Part shown: positions 6,464 to 34,441 of the stretch, piece after piece
Numbering within the stretch: position 1 is the first letter of the stretch
Layout of the letters: every line of letters starts with the position of its first letter
Assembly: GCA_029001845.1 (NCBI GenBank)
Contig: JAREWP010000016.1
Span: 1-39,708, forward strand
Length of the DNA stretch: 39,708 nucleotides
Direction of reading: 5' to 3'
Source: Candidatus Magnetocorallium paracelense
GTDB lineage: Bacteria > Nitrospirota > Thermodesulfovibrionia > Thermodesulfovibrionales > Magnetobacteriaceae
Program-made: the position numbers and the translations under genes
The notes under the pieces: generated by a model
What the model was told of the DNA's origin: nothing
Databases searched by the model: none
Seen by the model: only the letters and a program-made list of their open reading frames with translations

Positions 6464-6495
6464 ATAAAAAAAACCGTATCCCTAATGGAATACGG
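6464..6495 (-). terminator. Riboswitch expression-platform terminator
   Basis: On the minus strand CCGTATTCC pairs with GGGATACGG (nine pairs, one G-T) around an ATTA loop and runs straight into eight T residues. It lies between the TPP aptamer and thiS, so ligand-dependent transcription termination is the likely control mechanism. Confidence 0.92.
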
Positions 6496-6509
6496 CCTGC
6501 TTCTCTCCC

Positions 6510-6598
6510 TTTCCCTACGTCAGCATTAACCGTATCAGGTTCGAAGGGTCTCCTTAACAACAGGACTCTCAGGCTTCTCAGCCTCCCCCAGGGTAATT
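6510..6598 (-). ncRNA. TPP riboswitch aptamer (THI element)
   Basis: The minus strand shows the conserved thi-box features in order: GGGGGAGGCTGAGA at the 5' side, a variable hairpin, then ACCCTTCGAACCTGATA and CGGTTAATGCTGACGTAGGG. These are the pyrimidine-sensor and pyrophosphate-sensor helices of the thiamine pyrophosphate aptamer. It stands directly upstream of thiS with an intrinsic terminator after it, so high TPP should switch the operon off. Confidence 0.96.
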
Positions 6599-6603
6599 CT
6601 ATA

Positions 6604-13199: not shown

Positions 13200-13421
13200 T
13201 AATGACGCCTTTGCCTAATGTCTCATCATGTTATTATATAATCAATCGTGATGCGGAAACCAGAAAAAAGTGTTATACCGGCTTAAAATCTTAAACTCCT
13301 AAGGACTGGAGCGCTCCCTGCCGAATCGTATCATGCATGAGATTTTCAGATTCATTTTACTGAAAATTATAACACAGAACCCTTTTAAAAGAATATAACA
13401 GAGGTCATTCAACTAAAAAAT
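13200..13421. other. Intergenic region upstream of the response regulator
   Basis: No gene is visible. It is AT-rich and ends at dispersed repeat copy B. It should hold the response regulator promoter, which I cannot place with confidence. Confidence 0.45.
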
Positions 13422-13566
13422 GCAGTCAGTTATCAAAGGTCAGCCTTCAGACCGGGAAAGAATTGATATTATGCCAATAATAAGCTTCACCTTAATGGGT
13501 GATTCTGTTTTGAACCATAAAATATTGCAATTAAAAACTGACAGCTGATGACTGACAGCTAAATGC
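13422..13566 (-). repeat. Dispersed ~145-bp intergenic repeat, copy B (inverted)
   Basis: Reverse complement of the block order at 2275-2410: AGCATTTAGCTGTCAG, TTCAAAACA, TCACC/AAGGTGA palindrome, TTATTATTGGCATAATAT, ATTCTTTCC, then GGCTGACC and a degenerate GATAACTGAC end. It abuts the stop codon of the AEC transporter gene and may serve as its transcript end. Confidence 0.85.
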
Positions 13567-13574
13567 TTTTTTAG

Positions 13575-14477: not shown

Positions 14478-14492
14478 TTTTTAACCTCATTA

Positions 14493-14651
14493 TTATCCCG
14501 AAAATAACTGGCATCGTACCGGAAGTAGCAGTAATGTCCTGCCAAAACAAGCTGAAACTCGCAGACTCAAACACCACCTTGTTTTGGCAGGACATCACTG
14601 CTACTTCTAACCATTTTCATGCTTTGTGGTGACTCGGAGAGTCATGGAAGT
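14493..14651 (+). repeat. Multi-hairpin dispersed repeat, copy 1
   Basis: A 159-bp element almost identical to 28131-28290. It contains a 5' small hairpin (GGCATCGTACC region), a long fold-back whose left arm (14522-14550) pairs with the right arm (14579-14607) around TGTCCTGCCAAAACAAG, and a downstream GACTC-GGA-GAGTC hairpin. A final GGA...TCC pair lies just outside the identical part. Base changes between the copies preserve pairing. Immediately upstream of both flanking divergent genes. Structured RNA or REP/fold-back element. Confidence 0.9.
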
Positions 14652-14706
14652 CTAGTCCGAATATAGACGAATGCGCACCGGACCACCTGCCTGTAAGGAG
14701 GTTGTC

Positions 14707-20001: not shown

Positions 20002-20025
20002 AATCTATAGTTTCTAATCAATGTT

Positions 20026-20042
20026 CAATGTCATTAACTTAA
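20026..20042. repeat. Solo end of the CAATGTCATTAAC MITE
   Basis: CAATGTCATTAACTTAA matches the terminal repeat of the elements at 20311, 24335 and 29638, but no partner end is found nearby. Probably a relic; it lies just upstream of pheS. Confidence 0.65.
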
Positions 20043-20047
20043 TAAAA

Positions 20048-20190
20048 AGTATTTAGCTGTCAGCCATCAACTAACAGCTTTTTAGTTGCAACACTTTATG
20101 TTTCAAAACACATTCACCAATAAGGTGATGCTTATTATTGGCATAATATCAATACTTTCCTTTGATGGAAGCTGACCGCTGATCGCTGCC
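20048..20190 (+). repeat. Dispersed ~145-bp intergenic repeat, copy C
   Basis: Same orientation and block order as 2275-2410: ATTTAGCTGTCAGCC, TTCAAAACACATTCACC, AAGGTGA, TTATTATTGGCATAATAT, ACTTTCC, then AAGCTGACCGCTGATCGCTG. It sits 46 bp upstream of pheS. Confidence 0.85.
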
Positions 20191-20310
20191 TTTAAGATTA
20201 ATTGCCTGTGAATATCCCGGCAATGTAACAGGCATGATATTATAAAGCATTGGAGTGAAATTTTGGCAACTTCGGAATGAGTTTTACATAAGGGAATGCT
20301 TATATAGATT

Positions 20311-20357
20311 CAATGTCATTAACTTAAGGTGCTTTGCTGCTTAAGTTAATGACATTG
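20311..20357. mobile_element. Minimal 47-bp MITE with 10-bp target duplication
   Basis: Perfect 18-bp inverted ends (CAATGTCATTAACTTAAG) enclose only 11 bases (GTGCTTTGCTG). TATATAGATT flanks it exactly on both sides (20301-20310 and 20358-20367). It is an internally deleted relative of the 134-bp elements at 24335 and 29638. Confidence 0.9.
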
Positions 20358-20408
20358 TATATAGATTTGAAGACAAAAAGAGTTTTTTGGTATATTACTC
20401 CTAAATAG

Positions 20409-24312: not shown

Positions 24313-24334
24313 TAGAGGTTATTGAGTATAAAAA

Positions 24335-24468
24335 CAATGTCATTAACATAAGGAGCAAAGCACCTTCCGCCTTCAGCGGCTAAACTCGAAGGCTCCGCTT
24401 CGCTGCGCCTTCTCAGACATGACCCGCTTCCGTCGGAAGGTGCTTCACCCCTTATGTTAATGGTATTG
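24335..24468 (+). mobile_element. 134-bp MITE with 10-bp target duplication
   Basis: Imperfect ~35-bp inverted ends begin CAATGTCATTAACATAAGG and end with the inverse of CAATACCATTAACATAAGG; both continue into GAAGCACCTTCCG-like sequence. AGTATAAAAA flanks it exactly (24325-24334, 24469-24478). It is about 93% identical by eye to the inverted element at 29638-29771. No coding capacity. It lies 22 bp after the exporter stop and may also end that transcript. Ten-base duplications fit IS4-type transposases, an inference. Confidence 0.92.
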
Positions 24469-24671
24469 AGTATAAAAATATAATTCACACAAAGACTCAT
24501 TGACTTTTGCTTCCCTATCTGTTATCCTTTTACAATTATTTCTATTTAGAATTCTTGACTCAGAACACAGAAAAAAGAGTATTCAAATGCAATTCGGAGG
24601 AACCTTTCCCTCTCCCCAGGCGGGCATAAGCGCTCAAATAAGAGAGAAAATATCGAAAAAGGAGAAAAAGC
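24469..24671 (+). other. Leader of the GGDEF-like gene
   Basis: AT-rich spacer between the MITE and the GGDEF-like gene. A possible 66-codon frame from 24500 begins with TTG, has no ribosome site and overlaps the next gene, so I do not count it. Confidence 0.4.
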
Positions 24672-28009: not shown

Positions 28010-28130
28010 AGTCTGAAATCTCTCCCTCGTTCTTATTTTGTAAAATAAGAGCAAGAATACCATAATATATGGACTATATTCAAAAAAACAGATGTCCTGA
28101 ATTGATGTTAAGCGCGATATTGAAGAGGTT
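28010..28130 (-). other. Upstream region of the patatin gene
   Basis: Contains the ribosome site for the patatin gene and AT-rich sequence that probably holds its promoter; no gene or distinct motif is seen before the multi-hairpin repeat starts at 28131. Confidence 0.4.
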
Positions 28131-28290
28131 TTATCCCGAAAATAACCGGCATCGTGCCGGAAGGAGCAGTGATGTCCTGCCAAAACAAGCTGAAACTCGC
28201 AGACTCAAACACCACCTTGTTTTGGCAGGACATCACTGCTCCTTCTTAACCATTTTCATGCTTTGTGGTGGCCCGGAGGGCCATGGACGT
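28131..28290 (+). repeat. Multi-hairpin dispersed repeat, copy 2
   Basis: A 160-bp copy of 14493-14651. Hairpins: CCGGCA-TCG-TGCCGG at the 5' side; a perfect long fold-back with GAAGGAGCAGTGATGTCC opposite GGACATCACTGCTCCTTC; GGCCC-GGA-GGGCC; and GGAC-GTTT-GTCC just after. Compared with copy 1, pairs change together (T/A to G/C at 28164/28241; A/T to G/C and T/A to C/G in the small hairpin). Confidence 0.9.
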
Positions 28291-28309
28291 TTGTCCTGCA
28301 ATAAAAACA

Positions 28310-29414: not shown

Positions 29415-29637
29415 GATAATTTATTAAAATCAAGCTTTGAAGACGGATTGATCTATCAAACAGATGAGTGTAAGTTTTACTCTAACTTCTTTCTTCTACT
29501 TTATTTTTTCCACCGGAAATTGCTGACATTTATGGTATTATATGTATTCTTTTTTAATCCACAGGCAGGTTTCTTACATGTTTTAAGGTATGGCATGGGT
29601 TGGCGGATATAAAGAATTGGTTTTACAATACTATAAC
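29415..29637. other. Intergenic region, nothing recognised
   Basis: AT-rich sequence between the ATPase remnant and the MITE; a short frame at 29409-29612 has no coding features that I trust. Confidence 0.4.
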
Positions 29638-29771
29638 CAATACTATTAACTTAAGGGGCAAAGTGCCTTCCGACAGAAGCGGGTCATGTCTGAGAAGGCG
29701 GAGAGAAGCGGAGCCTTCGAGTTTAGCCGCTGAAGGCGGAAGGTGCTTTGCTCCTTAAGTTAATGACATTG
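29638..29771 (-). mobile_element. 134-bp MITE, inverted copy, with 10-bp target duplication
   Basis: Reverse-complement copy of 24335-24468, equal in length and differing at about ten positions. Ends are CAATACTATTAACTTAAGG and CCTTAAGTTAATGACATTG. ATACTATAAC flanks it exactly (29628-29637 and 29772-29781). Confidence 0.92.
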
Positions 29772-29836
29772 ATACTATAACTGTTTTGCCCATAGTATTT
29801 TTTTAAGGAACTAACAGCTTTTCTAAATTTTAGTTC

Positions 29837-33252: not shown

Positions 33253-34374
33253 TTATTTCTCGACCCTAATCAAGCAAACATCTCCATAAAACTCTCCTGC
33301 GAGAATAAATCCTTTATCCACTGTTTCTTCAATTGAATTTATCCAGCAGTTCTGAATTGTTTCATACCAGACTTTCTTCCCCTCAGGATCTGTCTTTAAT
33401 AAAAAGCCAGACACAAAAAAAGGTGCATTACTTTCTACTCCGGCGATAAGAAATCCATCTTCAGGAACCTCATATATTGAGTTTATCCAACACTCTTTAT
33501 AAGACATTGTCCAGATTTTTTTTCCGTCATTGCCTACTTTTATTAACATCCTGTCACCGGCAATCATAATATTTTTGTCTAAAGCTATTTGCGATGTCCT
33601 GCCCCATTCATAATCCTCTCCGCCAAATGTACTATGCCATAATTTTTTTCCATCCCTATTCGTTTTAATTACATAAATATCACTTCCTCCTGCACCGGAC
33701 GAGTAGGTTGTTCCGACTATAATGAAACCACCGTCCTCCGTCTCCTCCACAGTCTCCCCGTAATCATTGATTGTACCGCCATAGGTGTTATGCCAAAGCT
33801 CTTTTCCGTCCTTATTCGTTTTAATTATATAAACATCACTTCCCCCTGCACCGTACGAGTAGGTTGATCCGACTATAATGAAGCCACCATCCTTCGTCTC
33901 TCTCACAGATTTCCCGAAATCATTAACTGCGCCTCCATAGGTGCTATTCCATAATTCCTTTCCATTTTCATCCGTTTTAATTACATAAATATCACTTTCC
34001 CCGGCGCCGTACGAGTTTGTTGATCCGACTATTATGAAACCACCATCCATAGTCTCTTGTACAGACTCCCCATAATCACTGACTGTACCGCCATAGGTGT
34101 TATGCCAAAGCTCTTTTCCATCCTTATTCGTTTTAATTATATAAATTTTACTCCCGCTTATATCACTTAATTCTTTATCTCCAATTATAATAAAGCCGCC
34201 GTCTGTCGTCTGCCTCACAAACTTACCGCTTTCTATATCAGCGCCTGAAAATATTTTAGACCATTTAACCTTCAAGTGTTCATTGTTATAAGAGAAGGTT
34301 ATGCCCGGTGAAAAAAGAATAAAAGTCAAAGTTATAAGGCATAAATTAATTATATTTATTTTTAAATATCTCAT
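33253..34374 (-). CDS. Secreted tandem-repeat (beta-propeller-like) protein
   Basis: From the ATG at 34374 the protein has a signal peptide (INLCLITLTFILFSPG) and then about five to six repeats of ~50 residues built on DGGFIIVG, IKTNKDGKELWHNTYGG and DYGESVQET. This is the pattern of WD40/PQQ-like or delta-60-type extracellular propellers, common in environmental bacteria. The last two repeats diverge and contain CWINSIEE-type sequence. An ATG at 34410 would add 12 residues but is less consistent with the signal peptide. Neither start has a good ribosome site. Likely cell-surface or secreted; function unknown. Confidence 0.8.
   Translation of the reverse strand: MRYLKINIINLCLITLTFILFSPGITFSYNNEHLKVKWSKIFSGADIESGKFVRQTTDGGFIIIGDKELSDISGSKIYIIKTNKDGKELWHNTYGGTVSDYGESVQETMDGGFIIVGSTNSYGAGESDIYVIKTDENGKELWNSTYGGAVNDFGKSVRETKDGGFIIVGSTYSYGAGGSDVYIIKTNKDGKELWHNTYGGTINDYGETVEETEDGGFIIVGTTYSSGAGGSDIYVIKTNRDGKKLWHSTFGGEDYEWGRTSQIALDKNIMIAGDRMLIKVGNDGKKIWTMSYKECWINSIYEVPEDGFLIAGVESNAPFFVSGFLLKTDPEGKKVWYETIQNCWINSIEETVDKGFILAGEFYGDVCLIRVEK
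33640..34200. repeat. Tandem ~150-bp coding repeats
   Basis: Near-identical DNA units encode the propeller repeats; for example the block around CATAGGTGTTATGCCAAAGC recurs almost unchanged at about 33782 and 34094. High DNA identity suggests recent duplication or gene conversion, with scope for change in repeat number. Confidence 0.75.
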
Positions 34375-34441
34375 ACAAGTCTGCTTATAAATAATTTCTA
34401 AAATATGCATTTGTTTTAGATAAAATAACTACTATATGTTC

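Follow-up and report, generated by a model that had tools for sequence, protein, structure and literature searches.

The window, that is, the whole stretch of 39,708 nucleotides analysed here (positions 1–39,708 of the forward strand of contig JAREWP010000016.1, assembly GCA_029001845.1), comes from Candidatus Magnetocorallium paracelense (GTDB lineage Nitrospirota; Thermodesulfovibrionia; Thermodesulfovibrionales; Magnetobacteriaceae) and contains two nearly identical copies of a repeat. A preliminary description had located both correctly; the extents it gave (14493–14651 and 28131–28290) were slightly off, and the elements proper occupy 14495–14653 and 28133–28292, each directly behind a target triplet. 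The copies differ at 21 positions over 175 aligned columns and have the following parts.

14492–14494 (+): target triplet of copy 1, ATT (TTT in most copies); TTT logo of 73 isolated left ends.
14495–14653 (+): copy 1, subfamily A (palindromic middle); covariance-model match at 14492–14665 (204 bits) and 29-copy alignment.
14495–14506 (+): left end (LE) of copy 1, ATCCCGAAAATA, conserved among all cargo types.
14522–14607 (+): cargo A palindrome of copy 1, with 33-nt arms (14522–14554 and 14575–14607) and a conserved single-stranded loop between them; inverted repeat and covariation.
14614–14653 (+): right end (RE) of copy 1, 40 nt, terminating in AAGTCT (GACGTTT in most copies); pattern match with 2 mismatches.
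14630–14644 (+): RE hairpin of copy 1, TGACTC-GGA-GAGTCA; covariation within the genome and across genomes.
14654–14683 (+): further left-end remnant immediately behind copy 1, AGTCCGAATATAGACGAATGCGCACCGGAC; alignment to the left ends of other copies.
28130–28132 (+): target triplet of copy 2, TTT; left-end logo.
28133–28292 (+): copy 2, subfamily A; covariance-model match at 28130–28304 (210 bits).
28133–28144 (+): LE of copy 2, ATCCCGAAAATA; left-end comparison and logo.
28160–28245 (+): cargo A palindrome of copy 2, arms 28160–28192 and 28213–28245; inverted repeat.
28253–28292 (+): RE of copy 2, terminating in GACGTTT; pattern match with 0 mismatches.
28269–28283 (+): RE hairpin of copy 2, TGGCCC-GGA-GGGCCA; covariation within the genome and across genomes.

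The window also holds other dispersed repeats with AAGGTGCTTTGCTCCTTAAGTTAATGACATTG arms, partly long inverted repeats, in which the ends listed above are absent (20303–20371, 24327–24483 and 29623–29779), and a separate repeat family with GCTGATAGCTGACAGCTAAATGC motifs (2269–2416, 13412–13573 and 20012–20191), similar motifs adjoining several copies of the element studied here. A 156-nt tandem repeat occurs three times at 33608–34155 within an open reading frame on the reverse strand (33253–34410), and a TPP riboswitch lies upstream of thiamine genes (6494–6599, reverse strand).

Both window copies are members of a family, about 100 strong, of small non-coding mobile cassettes with two constant ends and interchangeable palindromic middles. 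In the source genome (6.0 Mb, 103 contigs), a DNA search with copy 1 returned 92 matches, some of them one palindrome read on the opposite strand, and a covariance model built on 29 copies returned 146, of which 73 were counted above 100 bits (two of the 73, C15:7980 and C59:112694, have common flanks and may stem from a single place that was assembled at two contig ends). About 70 copies are near-full. The weaker model matches carried the common left end, TTT|RYYCCGAAAATA, and a right end, TTTTCATGCTTTGTGGTG-hairpin-CATGGACGTTT, around different contents. The constant left end comprises 12 nt (RYYCCGAAAATA) directly after TTT, and the constant right end comprises 40 nt (TATTTTCATG...hairpin...CATGGACGTTT) and terminates in GTTT. 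Given that these ends are common to unrelated middles, the 86-nt palindrome is cargo, one of at least five kinds (A–E) found between them: the palindrome seen in the window copies (A), two GTAG-REP-like hairpins in inverted arrangement (B), a palindrome with CTTCGTGGTT/AACCACGAAG (C), a related but shorter middle (D) and almost no sequence at all (E). What appeared to be separate palindrome families in one genome is thus a single mobile system whose ends are constant and whose contents can be exchanged. Outside any cassette, a REPIN-like inverted GTAG-REP pair (compare cargo B) adjoins the single IS91 gene of the genome (locus L291, 2550–2690).

The ends recur more widely than any one middle. 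The RE pattern alone was found at 92 places at ≤3 mismatches (reversed control, 0), and the DNA retrieved from the genome contained 110 distinct right ends. The cargo A loop occurred 62 times, 48 times with both ends, 12 times with the left end and twice with neither. Right ends that have no recognisable left end were seen at L120, L123, L130, L137, L141, L146 and L147, and left ends that have no right end at L116, L132 and L135; in these last three, cargo A stops straight after the loop, where the second arm begins. Cassette length ranges from roughly 60 to 210 bp. The left terminus (RYYCC) and the right terminus (GACGTTT) are unrelated, and the cassettes hence have no terminal inverted repeats. 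A hairpin lies near the right terminus; the left end has none of its own, barring the cargo and the short repeat GAAAATA/TATTTTC, whose two halves can pair over the cargo between them; GAAAATA is the only such feature near the left terminus.

Folding was much stronger than expected from composition in shuffle tests (z = −6.5 for copy 1 as DNA and z = −9.3 for copy 2 as RNA; none of 200 shuffles folded as well as the real copies). Three or four hairpins had been described from the two copies, along with base differences that keep pairing, and an alignment of further copies had been suggested as a check. The 29-copy alignment, with 11 pairs showing two-sided changes, supports two hairpins well (the long stem and the small hairpin on the right), but not the remainder, because the 5′ hairpin (CCGGCATCGTGCCGG) is restricted to one subfamily and the ACCA/TGGT pairing is disrupted in others. 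Comparison of the window copies shows three pairs with both bases changed, one belonging to the long stem (35/112) and two to the small hairpin (142/152 and 144/150). All four bases quoted earlier (T14526, A14603, G28164 and C28241) are correct, but not every difference preserves pairing, as A14533 (G28171 in copy 2) breaks a long-stem pair in copy 1. For the RE hairpin, the covariation score was equalled by none of 500 shuffles in the source genome and again by none of 500 across genomes, where 97.7% of cells were paired in 22 right ends (21 from other genomes), a biased sample given that these were picked by resemblance.

Strong folding and compensatory changes, together with the strikingly conserved cargo A loop in the 29-copy alignment, are also what a functional structured RNA (a cis-regulator or small RNA family) amplified by chance would present, and a structured RNA was among the readings first offered. 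We nevertheless consider this very unlikely. Copies are intergenic in 86 of 90 cases with no preference in gene orientation, and the position upstream of protein genes, correctly noted for both window copies, is no rule across the family. The main hairpin is swapped wholesale for unrelated sequence among sister elements, and no Rfam family reached its gathering score, the only hits, all below threshold, being microRNA and further hairpin look-alikes. Mismatches in the RE hairpin are symmetric (24 G.T against 29 A.C, the latter being G.T on the other strand). The long-stem wobble count is lopsided (22 against 129), yet 90 of the 129 fall in two columns, and these two fixed mismatch columns dominate the count so that it makes no call of a transcribed strand. 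At long-stem pair 5, G-C occurs in 27 copies, C-G in 25 and T-A in 8, and mismatched cells are few. Switches of this kind are more easily explained by copying from arm to arm in a DNA palindrome than by selection on RNA, and arm-to-arm copying along with amplification of master copies is the more likely origin of the long-stem changes. Compensatory changes alone are no proof of a structured RNA where the sequence is a DNA palindrome, and an RNA function is not needed to explain the cassettes. The part of the earlier reading that finds support is that of a mobile palindrome, as indicated by the numerous dispersed copies, sharp ends, target motif and tandem arrays.

The boundaries of the cassettes define an insertion site. 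A logo of 73 isolated left ends showed a conserved TTT (each base present in 65–68 of the 73) and no information further left, and the right flanks of 50 copies that have no LE-like follower showed a preference for RYYCTGWAA up to +9 and nothing beyond. Insertion sites resemble TTT|RYYCTGWAA, with the cassette always in the same orientation to them. The right flank is close to LE but differs from it at +5 and ends sooner, so that a preference for certain targets is a more likely source than decay of a former left end. Empty sites bearing this type of motif occur elsewhere in the genome. One target motif, TTTATCCTGTAATCCTGTCTGAATAGTTAC, recurs at L293 (11719), L302 (1752) and L330 (7957 and 4426) and is occupied in L087, L097 and L301. 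No target duplication was found, the two flanks differing within copies (for example, at 14492 and C99:22410). LE-like sequence directly follows 60 of the 110 right ends and is often the start of another cassette, and many of these RE–LE junctions can be seen as two or three copies arrayed head to tail. As RE terminates in TTT and LE is itself target-like, cassettes already in place offer suitable sites for further insertion; they may be preferred as targets, which would generate the head-to-tail arrays.

The likeness of the RE–LE junction to the target on the right side also fits a circular cassette integrated by site-specific recombination, in which a tyrosine, serine or IS110-like recombinase would join the GTTT|RYYCCGAAAATA junction to TTT|RYYCTGWAA, a logic akin to that of integrons with the RE hairpin in the role of attC. 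The head-to-tail order and the combination of constant ends with variable content agree with such a route, and joining would allow TATTTTC to pair with GAAAATA so as to enclose the RE hairpin. Conservative recombination, however, usually requires both half-sites, and the target has no conservation left of TTT. The cassettes are moreover scattered over ~99 loci in short arrays with no platform seen, their ends have no integron core sites (RYYYAAC/GTTRRRY) and the joint folds weakly (z −0.7 to −2.2); its outer stem is invariant, so that covariation cannot support it. On balance, integration of a circle appears unlikely. Copying through RNA, in the manner of SINEs, is highly improbable. A transcript ending at RE would be reverse-transcribed into TTT|RYYC sites to leave copies shortened at the 5′ side, in agreement with the right ends that have no recognisable left end, but left ends with no right end occur as well (L116, L132 and L135), most copies have a full left end with a sharp boundary, and one-strand G.U pairs are not dominant in the RE hairpin. 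Unsystematic inspection also brought no linked reverse transcriptase to notice.

Orientation of the cassettes was compared with proxies for the direction of replication. Agreement with the coding-strand-corrected GC skew was found for 61 of the 90 loci (p = 0.001) and, counted per contig, on 28 of 37 contigs (p = 0.003); keto skew agreed at 56 of 90 loci (p = 0.026), and orientation also showed clustering by contig (p = 0.006). No signal came from uncorrected GC skew (20 kb), which mainly tracks genes rather than replication. These tests are proxies on a draft genome, and the strand bias is only suggestive because several proxies were tried and the loci are not fully independent. The bias fits insertion into the lagging-strand template, which is known for IS608 and ISDra2, and lagging-strand preference together with subterminal hairpins are hallmarks of the IS200/IS605 family (PMC6006769).

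A RAYT/IS200-type transposase with matching ends, for which a search had been recommended, was not encountered. The genome encodes five RAYT-like Y1 genes (NCBIfam REP_Tyr_transpos, below its cut-off), and RAYT was rejected as the mobiliser given that their flanks have no cassette ends. The one IS91 transposase was set aside on the ground that its locus, L291, has no right-end match, and TnpB was dismissed as a partner, its gene having no match in the genome. Cassette ends bound no gene at 30 Y1 loci of other genomes, and at the Y1 locus L034 an ordinary cassette copy lies ~0.7 kb off, past another gene. Right ends are present with no reported Y1_Tnp match in G077, G087, G042 and G098 (some of them incomplete). 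At 20 further loci viewed with 4–8 kb of sequence, much of it upstream, inspection by eye recognised no transposase-like gene between the ends that would mark an autonomous copy, and no cassette encodes a Y1 transposase. The five RAYT-like proteins could act in trans.

Those five genes and cargo B, an inverted GTAG-type REP pair, are the points in favour of a REP/BIME family of a resident RAYT gene or a classical MITE dependent on a DDE transposase, both close to what the preliminary description had listed. We regard this as most improbable. The RAYT flanks have no cassette ends, and a GTAG or GGAG foot, terminal inverted repeats and target duplication are all absent, so that the cassettes are neither canonical REPs nor canonical MITEs. 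The RE hairpin is preceded by TTTGTGG or CCTTTG; where the source genome has GTGG, other genomes have TTTG, and there is consequently no conserved GT[AG]G foot.

On the basis of the directly observed family with its constant ends, target, arrays, covarying RE hairpin and orientation bias, we propose that the cassettes are mobile but non-autonomous, resemble PATEs and move as single-stranded DNA through a trans-acting enzyme, with a rough probability of 0.55. The enzyme would recognise the folded ends on single-stranded DNA, probably on the lagging-strand template, and would move the cassette as an IS200/IS605-type HUH transposase does. Against this proposal stand the lack of a mobilising gene adjoining the cassette ends and a left end that has no hairpin of its own; IS200/IS605 elements also do not typically select sequence to the right of the insertion. 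A bolder and rather unlikely version holds that the folded 40-nt RE and the 12-nt LE suffice for an enzyme to insert arbitrary, mostly palindromic middles serially, on one replication strand, at sites of the type TTT|RYYC; the system would then parallel integron cassettes without coding for proteins, and a new recombinase or transposase would drive it. The ends, target and empty sites provide a defined substrate for an enzyme search.

The system is present across a bacterial order. A search with the RE model across 176 genomes of the same order detected the right end in 20, including the source genome and 19 further genomes that hold 1 to 7 copies each (a few of the weakest matches were unconvincing by eye), often with LE-like starts and various palindromic middles. 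Among these 176 genomes, no other member of the source's own family had a match, indicating that the distribution is patchy. Phages, plasmids and viral contigs gave no match to the element. In the genome collection the cargo A loop had one exact 27-nt match, within an amidohydrolase coding sequence of a Luminiphilus MAG (L069, 2029–2055); we take it as chance, as a homologue of this amidohydrolase was not found in the source genome.

Compared with known systems, the cassettes resemble IS200/IS605 elements such as IS608 and ISDra2 in insertion 3′ of a short motif with no duplication, in the hairpin near the right end and possibly in an orientation bias consistent with the lagging-strand template (by proxy, on a draft genome), but they have no tnpA or tnpB between the ends, show an extra preference right of the insertion and have no fixed left hairpin. 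They differ from IS91/ISCR elements, the resident IS91 locus having no right-end match, and from MITEs in having neither terminal inverted repeats nor target duplication. Head-to-tail order, a structured 3′ site and variable content recall integron cassettes (attC), whereas the consensus (TATTTTC / GTTTRYY) departs from the core sites (RYYYAAC / GTTRRRY) and the cassettes here are non-coding and scattered. The bcr1 repeats of the Bacillus cereus group are dispersed, ~155 bp long and predicted to fold, with mobile traits, and by description the cassettes are like them in size, dispersal, mobility and folding. The bcr1 repeats are listed among MITEs (PMC3733652). High copy number, intergenic position, hairpins and clusters are shared with REP/BIME/REPIN sequences (RAYT = TnpA-REP; PMC3733652, PMC6006769), as are RAYT-like genes in the genome and a cargo B that resembles an inverted GTAG REP pair; the constant ends differ in having no GTAG/GGAG foot and in flanking no RAYT gene.

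We file the cassettes under none of PATE, REP and MITE, because the relation to an IS605 element that is a trait of PATEs failed here, as did the defining traits of REP and MITE. The nearest known kind is the palindrome-associated transposable elements (PATEs) of Haloquadratum walsbyi, which are non-coding, have no terminal inverted repeats or target duplication, carry a palindrome near a terminus and comprise homogeneous and heterogeneous members with common ends, the end palindromes resembling those of resident IS605-type transposons (PMC3119063). The cassettes differ from PATEs in that no such transposon was found in this genome, a hairpin is not fixed at the left end, the middle is as a rule itself palindromic and tandem arrays are common. 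They share with PATEs the lack of terminal inverted repeats and target duplication, a length too short for a transposase, a palindrome near one terminus (the right) and common ends around heterogeneous contents.
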